Position numbers and translations under genes: made by a program. A stretch of 64,000 bases of DNA from Acrocarpospora corrugata (GTDB taxonomy: Bacteria > Actinomycetota > Actinomycetes > Streptosporangiales > Streptosporangiaceae): NCBI RefSeq assembly GCF_009687845.1, contig NZ_BLAD01000082.1, forward strand, positions 1 to 64,000. Direction: 5' to 3'. This document shows positions 52,637 through 58,620 of this stretch, in pieces. Positions within the stretch are counted from its first letter, which is position 1, and each line of letters starts with the position of its first letter. A model generated the notes under the pieces. The model was given only the letters and a program-made list of their open reading frames with translations, searched no databases and was not told the origin of the DNA.

Positions 52637-53880
52637 TGTAGGGCTCAAGAACTCGATTCGCTTCCAGCGCAGAGCCCATCGTCGGGTGGGGTGGACGGGT
52701 TGAGAGTTGCCGAGCGGCTGGTTCGGGTCGTCTGGGACCATGCTTTGTGATCTTGTCTATGGTGTACGCCGTCACCCGGCGCCTGATGTCTTTGCCCGTA
52801 CTGCTGTTGCGGCGCGACGCCTCCAAGGAGGCGGAGCTGCTGGTGCTTCGGCATCAGAACGCGGTCCTGCGCCGCCAGGTCCCACGCGTCCGGTATGAAC
52901 CAGCCGACCGCCTGTGGTTCGCGGCGCTCTCGCACCTGGTACCCCGCCCCAACTGGGAGAAGATCTTCCCGGTCACGCCGGCCACCCTGCTGGCCCGGCA
53001 CCGCAAACTCGTGACGAGGAAATGGGATTACAGCAGACATCGCCGTCCCGGCCGCCCGCCCACCGCGGCCGCGGTCAAGGCCCTCATCCTGCGCATGGCC
53101 GCGGAGAATCCGGGATGGGGCCACCGGCGCATTCATGGTGAACTGACCCGCCTCGGCCACAAGATCGCCGCTTCTACCGTCTGGAACGTCCTGAACCGGG
53201 CCGGGATCGATCCCGCCGCGCGCCGCAGCGGACCGACGTGGAAGCAGTTCCTGACCGCCCAGGCCGAGCACATTGTCGCCGTCGACTTCCTGCACGTGGA
53301 CACCGTCCACCTCAAACGCCTTTACGCCCTGGTCGTGCTGGAGCACGGCAGCCGCCGTACGCATCTGCTCGGCGTCACGGCAAACCCCACGGGCCAGTGG
53401 ACCGCCCAAGCCGCCCGCAACTTTCTCATGAACTCCGACATCGACGCGACGAACCTGAAGTTCCTGATCCGTGACCGTGCGGGCCAGTTCACCGGTGCCT
53501 TCGACGCGGTGTTCGCCGACGCCGGTCTCCGGGTCCTCAAGAGCCCAGCCCAGGCCCCGAAAGCGAACGCCCACTGCGAAAGGATCATCGGCACTCTACG
53601 CTGCGAGGTCTTCGACCGCATGCTCATCTTCAACGAGCACCATCTACGCCGGACACTCAACCGCTACCTAGAGCACTACAACACAGCCCGACCTCACCGC
53701 GGCATCGGGCAACTGTCCCCATCGCAAGCCGAAACCGGACCGCCAACCCCGATCGACCTGGCCAACCGCCGAGTCCATCGCAGAGCCATCCTCGGCGGCC
53801 TCATCAACGAGTACCAGATCGCCAGCTGACACCACCAAGACCCCGCAGGCCAGAGCCGAACCCTATTTCTGACCCCCACA
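52637..53880 (+). mobile_element. Intact IS481-like insertion sequence
   Basis: The ends are imperfect inverted repeats: left TGTAGGGCTCAAGAACTCG, right (reverse) TGTGGGGGTCAGAAATAGGG, agreeing at about two thirds of the first 25 positions. Both begin with TGT, as IS481 elements do. The element has 1,244 bp and one transposase gene. I see no obvious target duplication. The right end lies in the CDGSH gene and supplies its stop codon. Confidence 0.75.
52747..53829 (+). CDS. IS481-like transposase
   Basis: A 360-aa transposase. The N-terminal helices include EAELLVLRHQNAVLRRQVPR, the HTH region WGHRRIHGELTRLGHKIAAS, and the rve core shows DDE residues in HIVAVDFLHVDTVHLKRLYA, FLIRDRAGQFTGAFDAVF and AHCERIIGTLRCEVFDRML. 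The end, AILGGLINEYQIAS, is normal. It is open throughout. The left end of a relative survives at 394-428, so the family has been active here before. Confidence 0.88.
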   Translation: MILSMVYAVTRRLMSLPVLLLRRDASKEAELLVLRHQNAVLRRQVPRVRYEPADRLWFAALSHLVPRPNWEKIFPVTPATLLARHRKLVTRKWDYSRHRRPGRPPTAAAVKALILRMAAENPGWGHRRIHGELTRLGHKIAASTVWNVLNRAGIDPAARRSGPTWKQFLTAQAEHIVAVDFLHVDTVHLKRLYALVVLEHGSRRTHLLGVTANPTGQWTAQAARNFLMNSDIDATNLKFLIRDRAGQFTGAFDAVFADAGLRVLKSPAQAPKANAHCERIIGTLRCEVFDRMLIFNEHHLRRTLNRYLEHYNTARPHRGIGQLSPSQAETGPPTPIDLANRRVHRRAILGGLINEYQIAS

Positions 53881-54135
53881 GGCTTGGTCGCTCTCCCCGG
53901 CCTCGGCGGCCGGGAGGCGGGTGCGGCGGCGGTGGCTGGTGTCGCAGAACGGATACGTCCGGCTGCGCCGGCACGCGCACAGGGCCACCAGGAACCGGTC
54001 GGACCTGGCGACCGAGCCGTCGTCCAGCGTGACCTCGACCGGCCCTTCGACCAGCACCGGTCCGCCGGGCACAATCGTGACCCGGCGGGCCTCAGGCGGC
54101 GTGCCGTCTCGCGGCGGTGTCGGATTTGTCGGCAC
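53863..54135 (-). CDS. CDGSH iron-sulfur protein, C-terminus altered by an IS
   Basis: A 90-aa protein with a CDGSH-type motif, CACRRSRTYPFCDTSHRRR, whose three Cys and one His can hold a [2Fe-2S] cluster. The family works in iron or redox handling. The last residues (after ESDQ) are read through the right end of the IS481-like element, which also provides the stop at 53863; the natural tail is lost or altered, though the cluster motif is complete. The start at 54135 overlaps the methyltransferase gene by 44 bases. It is the last gene of a four-gene operon. Confidence 0.8.
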   Translation of the reverse strand: MPTNPTPPRDGTPPEARRVTIVPGGPVLVEGPVEVTLDDGSVARSDRFLVALCACRRSRTYPFCDTSHRRRTRLPAAEAGESDQACGGQK

Positions 54136-54772
54136 GGATGACCACCAGTTCCTCGTCGTTGTGTCCCGGACCCAGCAGCCCCTGGACCTGAAGGGCTTCT
54201 TTTCGCGCTCGCATGACCGGCCCGAAGTGCTCGCGCCGCCTGGCGACCACGCACGCGTTGAGCCCCGCCTCGCGCAGCCGGCACAGTGACGCTTCGACGC
54301 CGCTGAGCGCCGAATGCACCATCAGCAGCGACCCGCCGTCGGCCAGGTGCGCGGGCGCGAGGGAGCAGACCCGGTCGAGGATCCCGCGCCCGTCCAGCCC
54401 CGCGTTCCAGGCCCGTGCCCTGCTGTGGGCGGAGGGCGGGGCGGCGTCGCCCGGTACGTAGGGCGGGTTGGTCACGATGAGGTCGAACACCTGCCCGCCC
54501 AGCGGGGTGAACAGGTCGCCGTGGACCACCCGTACGCCCAGCCCTCTGATCAGTGTGTTGAACCTGGCGGCCAGCACCGCGCGCAGCGACCGGTCGACGG
54601 CGGTTACTCGCACACCGGCCCGGCGGGCGGCGACCACGGCCATCGCGCCGGTCCCCGTGCCCACGTCGAGCACCTCGGCCCCCGGCCGGAGTTCGATCAG
54701 TCCGAACGCGGCTGCCAGCAGCGCCGTGTCGCTCTGCGGCCGGTACACACCCGGCGGTCTCAGCAGGAACAT
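54092..54772 (-). CDS. HemK2/MTQ2-like class I methyltransferase
   Basis: A 226-aa SAM-dependent methyltransferase. Motif I is VLDVGTGTGAMAVVAARRAG, the acidic loop VTAVDRSLRAVLAARFN, and the catalytic motif FDLIVTNPPYVPG. The NPPY motif is that of N-methyltransferases acting on Gln, Asn or adenine, and the overall shape follows the HemK2/MTQ2 protein methyltransferase group. The start at 54772 lies 9 bp after the stop of the iron-enzyme gene. The target in this operon is unknown; release factor is unlikely, because prmC normally lies elsewhere. Confidence 0.82.
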   Translation of the reverse strand: MFLLRPPGVYRPQSDTALLAAAFGLIELRPGAEVLDVGTGTGAMAVVAARRAGVRVTAVDRSLRAVLAARFNTLIRGLGVRVVHGDLFTPLGGQVFDLIVTNPPYVPGDAAPPSAHSRARAWNAGLDGRGILDRVCSLAPAHLADGGSLLMVHSALSGVEASLCRLREAGLNACVVARRREHFGPVMRARKEALQVQGLLGPGHNDEELVVIRADKSDTAARRHAA

Positions 54773-54780
54773 CCCGCCCC

Positions 54781-55752
54781 CTATCGCGAATCGGACATCG
54801 GAGCCAGCAGGGAGCTACGGCCGGACCGCCAGCGGCCGAGCACGAAGTCGCCGAACCGGCCCTCCAGCCAGTCCGTCGCTCGCACGCCGAAGACGACGTC
54901 GGCCGCCAGGCCGGGCTCCCGCTGCAGCAGGTCGCCGATGACATCACGCCGTAGCACCTGCTCGTGTACGGCGTCGGCTTCGATGTGCTCGGTGTAGAAC
55001 AGCGGGTCGACGCCGAGCCGGGTCAGTCCCTGGGCCAACCGCCTGGCGCTGGGCGCGGTGGTGATCTCGGCCGCGGCGAAGTGCCCGACCAGGGCCCCGC
55101 GCAGGCGGCGATGCAGGCCGAACAGCGACATCATGTTCACGACCGCGAGCATCTCGGCGGGCGCCACCTCCAGGTATGCCCCATAGGAGGAGTCGAGCGC
55201 GAGTTCGTCCATCAGGTCGGCGAACAGCCGGGAGTGCATGCGCTCGGCCCGCCCGCCGCCGAACTCGTCGAACTCCACCGCCACCAGCGCGGCCTTGGCC
55301 CTGCCCTGCAATCGGGGGATGACCCAGGCGTGCGGGTCGGCCTCCTTGAGGTGGTAGATCGACCGGTGCACGACGTACTCGCGTAGCTGCCACAGCTCAC
55401 CGTCGTCACGCAGATGGTGTGAGATCCCCGTCGCTTCGACCGGCTCGACCAGCAGCTCCTCCAGCACCCCGCTCACCTCGTCGCAGCCGGTCACCCCGCC
55501 CCGCAGCGCCGCCAGGAACAGCCGCTCCAGCTCGCCCCGTGTCGCCAGCAGCCCGGGATCCCATTCCCACTCGCCGCTGACACCGTCGAACCCGCGATAG
55601 TGCAGCTCGTAGCAGAGATACAGGGCGAGCTGCAGGTCCTCCCCGAGCGGATCGGCCCCGGCCACCCGAGGCGGCGGCTGCCGGAGCGTCAGCGCCGAGA
55701 TCACCCCGGCCGACAGCGGTCCGCGCGCGGGCGGCAGTTTCGGTTCGTTCAT
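54781..55752 (-). CDS. Iron-containing redox enzyme, haem-oxygenase-like fold
   Basis: A 323-aa protein of the haem-oxygenase-like diiron (HDO/HOX) type. After LALYLCYELHYRGFDGVSGE it has LKEADPHAWVIPRLQGRAKA and VAVEFDEFGGGRAERMHSRL, and later YTEHIEADAVHEQVLRRDVI. The Glu and His residues in these segments are the likely metal ligands. Known relatives oxidise or cleave amino-acid- and fatty-acid-derived substrates with O2. Its start overlaps the YbdK-like gene by four bases, so the ligase and the oxidase are coupled. Confidence 0.8.
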   Translation of the reverse strand: MNEPKLPPARGPLSAGVISALTLRQPPPRVAGADPLGEDLQLALYLCYELHYRGFDGVSGEWEWDPGLLATRGELERLFLAALRGGVTGCDEVSGVLEELLVEPVEATGISHHLRDDGELWQLREYVVHRSIYHLKEADPHAWVIPRLQGRAKAALVAVEFDEFGGGRAERMHSRLFADLMDELALDSSYGAYLEVAPAEMLAVVNMMSLFGLHRRLRGALVGHFAAAEITTAPSARRLAQGLTRLGVDPLFYTEHIEADAVHEQVLRRDVIGDLLQREPGLAADVVFGVRATDWLEGRFGDFVLGRWRSGRSSLLAPMSDSR

Positions 55753-56873
55753 GCGCTCTTCCTGTACGTCGGGTGCGGCTGTTCCCGCACGGTCTGGTCG
55801 CGCAGCATCTCCAGCACGGCCTCCGGCCCTCCCGCGGCGGCGCGGCGCTGCCGTACGGCACCCGTGCCCGCGCGTCGTACCCAGGCCACCGACTCCTCGA
55901 CCTCGGCCAGGTCGCCGCTGTCGGCCAAGGCGTCCCGCACGTGCGCCAGGAGCCGGTCGAGAATCCGAGCGGCGGGCACGGTGCGCGCCTCGACCACGTC
56001 GACGCCGGGCCCGTCGAGCCCGTGACGGGCCGCGTTCCACACCGCCGCCGCGCAAATCTGGTCGTCCACTCTGGGTGCCTCCCGCCCTTCGGCCAGCGCG
56101 GCTTCGGCCGTACCGACCAGGGCCCTGGTCAGCGCCGCCTGCAGTACGGCCTCGTCGGCGGTGCCGGCCGCGTCGGCCGCGCGCACCTCCACAGTCGGTA
56201 ACCCGACGCCCGGTCTGGCCAGCCAGAACGACATCGCCTCGTCCACCAGCACGCCGCAGTCGACCAGCCGGTCCACCTGCCGCTCATAGGCGGATGCCGA
56301 GTCGAACCACGGCGGCACCCCGGAGCCGGGGAAGCGTGACTGCTGCACCATCCGCCAGCTCGCGTACCCCGAGTCACGTCCACGATCGAACGGCGAGTTG
56401 GCCGACAGCGCCAGCAGCGTGGGCAGCCAGGGACGCAGGTGATTCATCATGGCTACCGCCGTCTCGCGATCGGCGACGCCGACGTGCACGTGGCACCCGC
56501 AGCTCTGATAGTCGGCGATCACACCCCTGTACAGATTTCCGATACGCGCGAACCGCTCGCCCTCCGACAGCACGGGTACGGCCTTCGCCAGCACCGGAGT
56601 GCCCACCGACACCAGGTCCAGCCCCTCGGCCCGCGCCGCCTCCGCCAGCAGCACCCGGGCCCCGTGCAACTGGGCGCGCAGGTCGGCGAGCGTCGCGCAG
56701 ACCCCGGTGGCCGCTTCGACCTGCGTCTGGAACAACTCCTGGTGCAGGCTGCCGCCGCTGCCCCGTCCAGGATGCCCGCCGACCGCCGCAAGGACCTTGC
56801 CCGCCAGCGCGACCGGCTCTCCTGAGGCGGCCAGCAGCAGGAACTCCTCTTCCACTCCTACGGTCTTCGCCAT
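55749..56873 (-). CDS. YbdK-like carboxylate-amine ligase (GCS2 family)
   Basis: A 374-aa glutamate-cysteine-ligase-2-family enzyme. It starts MAKTVGVEEEFLLLAASGEP behind a strong GGGAGGTAAG site, which excludes the longer frame to 57023. Other landmarks are LYRGVIADYQSCGCHVHVGV and ALSANSPFDRGRDSGYASWR. The family forms amide bonds between a carboxylate and an amine with ATP; E. coli YbdK has weak gamma-glutamylcysteine activity. As the first gene of an operon with an iron oxidase, methyltransferase and CDGSH protein, it may make the substrate they modify. Confidence 0.85.
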   Translation of the reverse strand: MAKTVGVEEEFLLLAASGEPVALAGKVLAAVGGHPGRGSGGSLHQELFQTQVEAATGVCATLADLRAQLHGARVLLAEAARAEGLDLVSVGTPVLAKAVPVLSEGERFARIGNLYRGVIADYQSCGCHVHVGVADRETAVAMMNHLRPWLPTLLALSANSPFDRGRDSGYASWRMVQQSRFPGSGVPPWFDSASAYERQVDRLVDCGVLVDEAMSFWLARPGVGLPTVEVRAADAAGTADEAVLQAALTRALVGTAEAALAEGREAPRVDDQICAAAVWNAARHGLDGPGVDVVEARTVPAARILDRLLAHVRDALADSGDLAEVEESVAWVRRAGTGAVRQRRAAAGGPEAVLEMLRDQTVREQPHPTYRKSA

Positions 56874-57178
56874 CTTACCTCCCGGGCAGCGCCGCAGGAG
56901 ATGGCCTGGAGGCCCCTGAGCTGCGGCGCAGTGCTTAAGCCCTACCCAGTTGGCGCCCATCATGCCTGGAGCGGGCCAGAGCGACAATGCCCACCAGGGC
57001 GGCAAGCCGAATTTACCCATCAACTTGCTCGCTAGTTCCCTGCGGGCGGTGGGCGGCCACGCTCACGCGCCAAGGCCTGCCCATCCATGACTTCACAGCA
57101 GGTCAAGGCTCAAACGACCTGTTAAGAATACGGGCGTTCGGGTATATGGCGAACTATGTAGACATGAAAGGGGCAAAT
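56874..57178. other. Divergent intergenic region
   Basis: It separates the leftward YbdK operon from rightward small membrane-protein genes, so it should hold both promoters. AT-rich sequence occurs near 57120-57175. I see no gene or clear operator. Confidence 0.35.
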
Positions 57179-58020: not shown

Positions 58021-58620
58021 TTAGCCCTGGTCGTCACCGTGGCTTGGCGACGCCGTCGAAGGCGCCGGCCGAGTGGTACCGCTCTTGCCTCTGATCCGGG
58101 AACCGCTGGTCAGCCCAGAGGGCTTACGGGCGTTGAGGCGTTTCAACGTGTAGGCGAGAGTCGCACCGTAGACGACGTGGCTGACCGCCATGACCCACTG
58201 GCGGCCCCGATAGTCGCGGGATATCGGTGGCAGGATGCCGAGCGAGGGCACCCAGCCTCCATAGCTGGACAGCCAGATCGCCAGCCCGTATGCCGTGCCG
58301 ATCGGCGCGGACGTCCGGTAGCCCCGGGCCACCGCGGCGAACGCGCTGCCGGCCACGGCGCCGAAGCCGAAGTGAGACAGGAAACTGAGCACGTTCTCGC
58401 CCGGCTTGGGACGATGTGCCGGTCCCGGCATCAGGGCGCGGGTGATGTGTTTGGGCGGATGCTCTTCCATAACACCGAACCGGCGACCGGCCAGCATGAC
58501 AACGCTCATGGCCGCGGTGGCTAGCACGCCACCGACGGCTCCGGCGCCCAGTTCCTTCTTTATGACGACTCCCTTGCGGATGTGGCCTGGTGCAAAACCC
58601 TGTCCTCGAATTGAGCACAA
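58021..58620 (-). CDS. DUF1440/DUF6789-like membrane protein
   Basis: A membrane protein of up to 199 aa. Hydrophobic segments are AGAVGGVLATAAMSVVMLAG, HFGFGAVAGSAFAAVARGY, GTAYGLAIWLSSYGGWVPSL and a last one around WVMAVSHVVYGATLAYTLKR. The pattern of Gly-rich helices and the EEHPPKHITRALMPG segment resembles the DUF1440/DUF6789 group, of unknown function. The first in-frame ATG is at 58620; a good GGGAG lies further inside, before ATA at about 58560, so the true start is uncertain. The C-terminus is basic and Ser-rich. Confidence 0.6.
   Translation of the reverse strand: MCSIRGQGFAPGHIRKGVVIKKELGAGAVGGVLATAAMSVVMLAGRRFGVMEEHPPKHITRALMPGPAHRPKPGENVLSFLSHFGFGAVAGSAFAAVARGYRTSAPIGTAYGLAIWLSSYGGWVPSLGILPPISRDYRGRQWVMAVSHVVYGATLAYTLKRLNARKPSGLTSGSRIRGKSGTTRPAPSTASPSHGDDQG

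Follow-up and report, generated by a model that had tools for sequence, protein, structure and literature searches.

Why are a carboxylate-amine ligase, an iron oxygenase, a methyltransferase and a small iron-sulfur protein encoded together in one compact operon, and which of them belong together elsewhere? The operon lies in a stretch of 64,000 nt from Acrocarpospora corrugata (contig NZ_BLAD01000082.1, positions 1–64,000; hereafter the window), and a sequence-only reading had seen in it a small biosynthetic or modification pathway. Comparison with related genomes showed that its core is the pair formed by the heme-oxygenase-like diiron oxidase/oxygenase (HDO) and the CDGSH iron-sulfur protein, whose tie is the widest, that the methyltransferase is a common companion, and that the YbdK-type ligase is confined to some lineages.

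Organization of the operon

The four genes, in order of transcription, are:

55749–56873, minus strand: YbdK-type carboxylate-amine ligase, first gene, 374 aa, ATG start
54781–55752, minus strand: HDO, 323 aa, ATG start
54092–54772, minus strand: HemK2/MTQ2-like NPPY methyltransferase, 226 aa, ATG start
53863–54135, minus strand: CDGSH iron-sulfur protein with a single motif (CDTSH form), 90 aa, GTG start

These coordinates and the domain matches confirm the compact operon of the sequence-only reading, which had its genes coupled by overlaps or 9-bp spacing. The overlaps are present, since the HDO start overlaps the YbdK stop as ATGA and the CDGSH gene begins 44 bp before the end of the methyltransferase gene; the gap from the HDO stop to the methyltransferase start is 8 bases, not 9. 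Each product passed a Pfam cut-off. The ligase matched GCS2 PF04107 (E 5.5e-42) and exceeded the curated cut-off of TIGR02050 (233.3 bits, cut-off 176.4) and that of NF010041, the HDO is the sole PF14518 match in the genome (E 7.6e-59), the methyltransferase scored 105.6 bits against the HemK2/MTQ2 model TIGR00537 (cut-off 87) and carries the NPPY motif, and the CDGSH protein matched PF09360 (E 7.5e-17).

Linkage of the HDO and CDGSH genes

We drew 148 genomes from the class and found an HDO match (E 1e-3) in 81 of them. The linkage count took in 85 of the 87 HDO places, the second fragments of two genes being left out, and the best 72 places, in 70 genomes, were treated as strong, a cut that we chose ourselves. 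A CDGSH gene was present within 100 bp of 33 of these strong HDOs, within 500 bp of 38 and within 2 kb of 57. At the level of genomes, 58 had both families, 12 HDO only, 15 CDGSH only and 63 neither (Fisher p 4e-15; P values here and below ignore the relatedness of genomes). Methyltransferase places (E 1e-20) numbered 26, in 25 genomes; 20 were within 400 bp of an HDO, one was at 2.9 kb and five were elsewhere, and 22 were within 300 bp of a CDGSH gene. Moreover, in this sample CDGSH genes were often found near the HDO where the methyltransferase and YbdK were absent or a glycosyltransferase stood in their place, and hence we take the methyltransferase and YbdK to be lineage additions to an HDO and CDGSH core.

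Closer relatives were collected as the window plus the best 80 of at least 592 pattern matches (81 loci), and profile searches were made within 3 kb of each HDO. CDGSH was found at 78 loci, YbdK at 40 and all four families at 40; the methyltransferase was within the limit at 78 loci when measured by open reading frame (ORF) ends and at 76 by domain ends. Loci L071 and L087 had no CDGSH match, and both end shortly after the HDO. In a further 35 chosen class and relative loci (L130–L149 and L180–L194), CDGSH was present at 33, a glycosyltransferase at 10 and a match to one of three methyltransferase profiles at 18. From other classes of the phylum, 20 of 23 HDO places were used, some on contigs that end near the HDO; CDGSH was found at 10, a glycosyltransferase at six and all four window families at one (L207). 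For controls, 32 random places were drawn and two (G118 and G056) dropped because they were near an HDO, and none of the family profiles matched in the remaining 30 loci of 10 kb from the same kind of genomes. Thus the suggestion that similar sets recur in actinomycetes is borne out, and a failure of the four genes to co-occur in other genomes, which had been named as grounds for giving the idea up, was not what the neighbourhood survey found. The pathway idea is partly supported, and a small biosynthetic or modification route may hold; what did not stand is a set of four equal partners.

YbdK was upstream of the HDO in the same direction at all 40 loci, and the methyltransferase preceded CDGSH on one strand at 73 of the 74 loci with both, adjacent in 72. 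This second pair was downstream of the HDO and convergent in 40 cases, downstream and codirectional in 31 and otherwise placed in three, and the fully codirectional order of the window was seen at 3 of 81 loci. Proximity that is retained while orientation changes argues for function. A number of distant loci have a different methyltransferase near the HDO, with a DPPW, DPPY or NPPY motif; of the four that were scanned, PrmC was the top-scoring model for three and PRK14968 for the fourth, in each case with a score under the cut-off. At L139 (9052–9765) and L144 (8906–9682), HDOs with no detected CDGSH have an NPPY methyltransferase of a distinct type next to them. At L133 (8065–10422; the same gene occurs in L028) HDO and a GT2-type glycosyltransferase share one ORF of ∼785 residues, which is a natural link between the two enzymes.

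A putative N-oxygenase

The residues E163, H173, E229, H256, D260 and H263 of the HDO were invariant in 61 sequences and E137 was present in at least 90%, so that the predicted ligand set, three histidines with three or four carboxylates, would be that of the superfamily. In a profile alignment counted by hand, E137 corresponds to E189 of SznF, E163 to E215 and H173 to H225, followed by H-x3-D-x2-H; the aligned SznF residues are those that we take to bind metal. The counterpart of E137 is present in RohS and missing in HrmI. SznF is described in the available part of a review as a three-histidine, four-carboxylate (3H/4C) enzyme whose additional glutamate is contributed by an auxiliary helix (PMC13108848). 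The HDO model (predicted local distance difference test, pLDDT, 97.1) has a heme-oxygenase-like helical fold, and was matched best to three N-oxygenases, HrmI (VIA Z 31.7, root-mean-square deviation 2.5 over 296), SznF (29.3) and RohS (28.6), with lower matches to FlcD (24.0), CADD (19.7) and BesC and UndA (about 16). The HDO resembles HrmI, SznF and RohS in fold over nearly the whole chain, in the metal ligands and in the extra glutamate of SznF, but identity is only ∼20%, the gene setting is another one, and the window type has a constant CDGSH neighbour. From this resemblance our best guess for the predicted reaction is N-oxygenation.

A variant CDGSH protein

The window CDGSH protein has the single motif LCACRRSRTYPFCDTSH, with three cysteines and one histidine. 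The motif was present in 159 of 160 linked homologues (some genomes are counted twice), as CDTSH in 110, CDGSH in 26, CDGTH in 17 and other forms in six, and lysine or arginine followed the motif histidine in 152 of the 159. CDTSH was seen in 98 of 104 proteins beside a window-type methyltransferase, in 12 of 29 with neither neighbour and in 0 of 26 at glycosyltransferase-type loci, so that the type of iron-sulfur protein tracks the type of set. In L072 (Amycolatopsis) the CDGSH gene looks frameshifted or misassembled, with a profile match and no motif in its frame. The consensus given in the accessible text of a structural study is CDG(S/T/A)H (PMC3174974), from which the CDTSH of the window departs; it passed PF09360 nonetheless, and therefore we file it as a variant of the domain family. 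It resembles the Type 4 CISD proteins (bacterial, single motif) in its one motif, in all four metal ligands and in the lysine or arginine that mostly follows the histidine, and differs from them in that CDTSH replaces CDG(S/T/A)H in 110 of 159 homologues and in the link to an HDO.

Relatives of the ligase and the methyltransferase

The solved relatives of the window ligase are 1tt4 and 1r8g (YbdK). It is similar to 1r8g and the TIGR02050 ligases over the whole length and differs by sitting in an HDO operon, and the genome holds at least four further YbdK homologues at E 1e-20 among the matches listed. The solved relatives of the methyltransferase are HemK/PrmC and N6AMT1. HemK2/MTQ2 methylates a glutamine of release factors with Trm112 as partner. 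The window enzyme shares with HemK2/MTQ2 (N6AMT1) and PrmC the NPPY motif and a TIGR00537 score above cut-off; unlike them it is a bacterial protein that adjoins CDGSH in a genome with a separate PrmC. Because that PrmC, itself above cut-off, is present, a role in release-factor methylation is not needed of the window enzyme.

Boundaries of the block

The features beside the operon are:

52747–53829, plus strand: transposase ORF, resembling IS481/IS3 models below their cut-offs
58021–58620, minus strand: DUF6789 membrane protein, upstream of the operon

Of five genomes of the genus that were searched, the window's own included, two have an HDO of the window type, the other being G150. The two share a block of ∼3.08 kb at 89% identity (∼53898–56976), which is the operon with ∼100 bp upstream, and the G150 flanks compared (0.3 kb upstream and 0.6 kb downstream) did not match those of the window. 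A shared block with non-matching flanks, together with the same families found together elsewhere, indicates that the operon is more than chance. The similarity to G150 stops ∼11 codons before the CDGSH stop, and the final codons are not those of its G150 homologue; the metal-binding motif is unaffected. Because this break lies beside the transposase ORF, which adjoins the end of the CDGSH gene, an insertion seems to have altered just the tail of the protein. No convincing inverted repeats of an insertion element were found around the transposase ORF.

A SigB-type motif and the neighbourhood

One further feature lies upstream of the operon:

56942–56965, minus strand: SigB-type promoter-like sequence GCAT-N14-GGGTAG, 92 bases before the YbdK start

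In the part of PMC8346170 available, the SigB, SigL and SigM promoters of S. coelicolor have a weak −35 element GNNT and a −10 element with three nearly invariant G and A in the fifth place. Against the window copy at −92, G150 has GCAT-N14-GGGTA at −85, and six Amycolatopsis loci (L064, L082, L083, L088, L094 and L115) have GCAT-N15-GGGTA at −54 to −63. We searched 300 bases upstream of HDO units, of which 74 of 127 were left after deduplication, of 281 other unit starts in the same loci and of 154 in random loci. The form GNNT-N14-16-GGGTA[CT] was found in 16 of 74 HDO units, compared with 19 of 281 (p 4e-4) and 3 of 154 (p 2e-6), and two permuted motifs were flat across the same sets. Bare GGGTA[CT] was found in 22/74, 43/281 and 15/154, the GTTT form in 6/74, 9/281 (p 0.07) and 0/154 (p 0.001), and the GGWWT form in 1/74, 5/281 and 1/154. 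A first test, in which related loci were counted (129 HDO starts and 748 controls), gave 35/129 versus 77/748 for GNNT-N14-16-GGGTA[CT] and 55/129 versus 157/748 for the bare form; the GTTT-type promoter was flat there (13/129 versus 69/748) and was set aside. The choice of motif was partly post hoc, because a GGGTA box in front of the window operon had already been noticed when the tests were made.

Pfam scans covered 150 proteins on each side, out of 196 neighbours of HDOs and 214 proteins of the random loci. Among the first 25 families of the HDO neighbours, ANTAR and sigma-70 region 4 lead with six each and region 3 has five; among the random-locus proteins region 4 has three, and ANTAR and region 3 are outside the first 25. 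The filter for core genes was leaky, as zf-CDGSH matched 3 of 150 supposed non-core neighbours. The promoter motif points to a general-stress setting; the sigma and ANTAR neighbours do so weakly and are only suggestive. In several lineages the HDO set has a gas-vesicle cluster next to it (L084, L132, L133, L134, L144, L147 and L215), and the annotated order on one Streptomyces plasmid is gas-vesicle genes, a Rieske protein, a VOC protein, HDO, CDGSH and a HemK2-type methyltransferase. The Rieske protein was discarded as a standing HDO neighbour, being present at just 1 of 136 loci.

Discussion

A constant HDO and CDGSH pair with exchangeable tailoring genes would be best explained by a two-component oxygenase pathway that is switched on in stress. 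A 3H/4C HDO of the N-oxygenase branch of HrmI, SznF and RohS would work with a dedicated CDGSH [2Fe-2S] protein, which would give it electrons, or possibly iron or cluster repair. In the lineage of the window the YbdK ligase may convert an amino acid or amine to an amide; this product, or else a partner compound, would be oxidised by the HDO, most probably on a nitrogen atom, and methylated by the NPPY enzyme; in other lineages other (D/N)PP(Y/W) methyltransferases or a glycosyltransferase may act as substitutes. Transcription of the operon would be driven by a sigma factor of the SigB family. The stress side of this reading has a precedent in DtpC, an HDO that protects dried cells from oxidative stress and to which we return below (PMC13232832). 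We put the probability of this reading as a whole, a stress-induced oxygenase pathway with the CDGSH protein as redox or iron partner of the HDO, at roughly 0.4. A process shared by HDO and CDGSH is more probable than this whole reading. The stricter proposal of a two-component oxygenase with CDGSH as its dedicated redox partner, in a SigB-controlled stress pathway found throughout the phylum and carrying exchangeable tailoring enzymes, is made tentatively.

To our knowledge, a redox-partner role for a diiron HDO and CDGSH pair has been described for neither family. A literature search, which had most subscription journals outside its reach, found no paper that links HDO with CDGSH or describes the gene set. 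Such a partner would be new, since HDOs studied to date need no protein effector according to the available text of the review (PMC13108848, section 5), and this is also the first of several points that weigh against our proposal. CDGSH was not detected near 15 of 72 class HDOs, 10 of 20 loci of other classes and 2 of 35 class and relative loci, CDGSH relatives occur in 15 class genomes without a strong HDO, and no HDO-CDGSH fusion was found in the loci scanned. Across the class the ligase is seldom tied to the HDO: among the matches listed, the window's YbdK is the only one with an HDO next to it on its own strand (the two are 268 bp apart on opposite strands in G073). Furthermore, 58 of the 74 HDO units have no copy of the promoter motif, the window copy ends in GGGTAG and so falls outside the strict form (one mapped promoter, SCO1276p, also ends so in the portion of PMC8346170 available), and stress genes are only weakly enriched among HDO neighbours.

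Alternatively, the HDO may be a protective oxidase that lowers O2-derived oxidants or holds iron under drying, osmotic or oxidative stress, with CDGSH as a redox or iron-sulfur aid and with YbdK and the methyltransferase serving other stress functions. The SigB-type motifs fit this explanation too, as do the gas-vesicle genes, which adjoin the HDO locus in 6 of 136 cases (three of these from a single genus) and none of the 30 controls. There is moreover a precedent in DtpC of Acinetobacter baumannii, which the accessible part of PMC13232832 describes as an HDO that protects dried cells from oxidative stress; it is co-transcribed with katE, keeps peroxide down once cells are dried and depends on E143, H153 and H232. 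DtpC would share a stress role with the window HDO and has the E-x9-H spacing of E163 and H173. It differs in sitting with katE, which is not among the four window genes, and the available text of PMC13232832 mentions no CDGSH, methyltransferase or ligase. The tight YbdK-HDO and methyltransferase-CDGSH pairs and the HDO-glycosyltransferase frame fit a multi-step modification better, and the nearest solved relatives of the HDO are N-oxygenases, and thus we hold this explanation to be possible but doubtful.

It is unlikely that ligase, N-oxygenase and N-methyltransferase make one secreted specialised metabolite. The enzyme types do fit, and HDOs are mostly known from natural-product pathways in the portion of the review available (PMC13108848), but the distribution is broad for such a pathway, with HDO matches in more than half of the genomes drawn from the class, and among the first 25 families of the neighbours scanned none for biosynthesis, transport or resistance is prominent. 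Still less probable is a protein modification in which the HemK2-like enzyme methylates a protein glutamine or a similar residue and HDO and CDGSH act on the same protein: the methyltransferase exceeds the HemK2/MTQ2 cut-off with NPPY, and distant HDO-adjacent methyltransferases score against glutamine-methyltransferase models, albeit below cut-off, but the genome has its own PrmC, YbdK and the glycosyltransferase do not fit in easily, and the set contains no known gene for a target protein. That a mobile element has merely carried unrelated genes along together, as the differing flanks in two genomes of the genus, the adjoining transposase ORF and HDO genes on 13 plasmid-collection records might suggest, is very unlikely given linkage across families and classes with orientation changed and proximity kept.

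The preferred reading, a stress-induced oxygenase pathway built on HDO and CDGSH, bears on gaps in both families. According to the part available of the structural study (PMC3174974), what CDGSH proteins do is still to be understood, and the deep genomic tie to HDO makes the gaps on both sides testable with two purified proteins. For Streptomyces, Amycolatopsis and their relatives it would mean a widespread and apparently unstudied pathway, in which the gene set is a clear target for deletion and osmotic, drying or oxidative stress is the predicted inducer.

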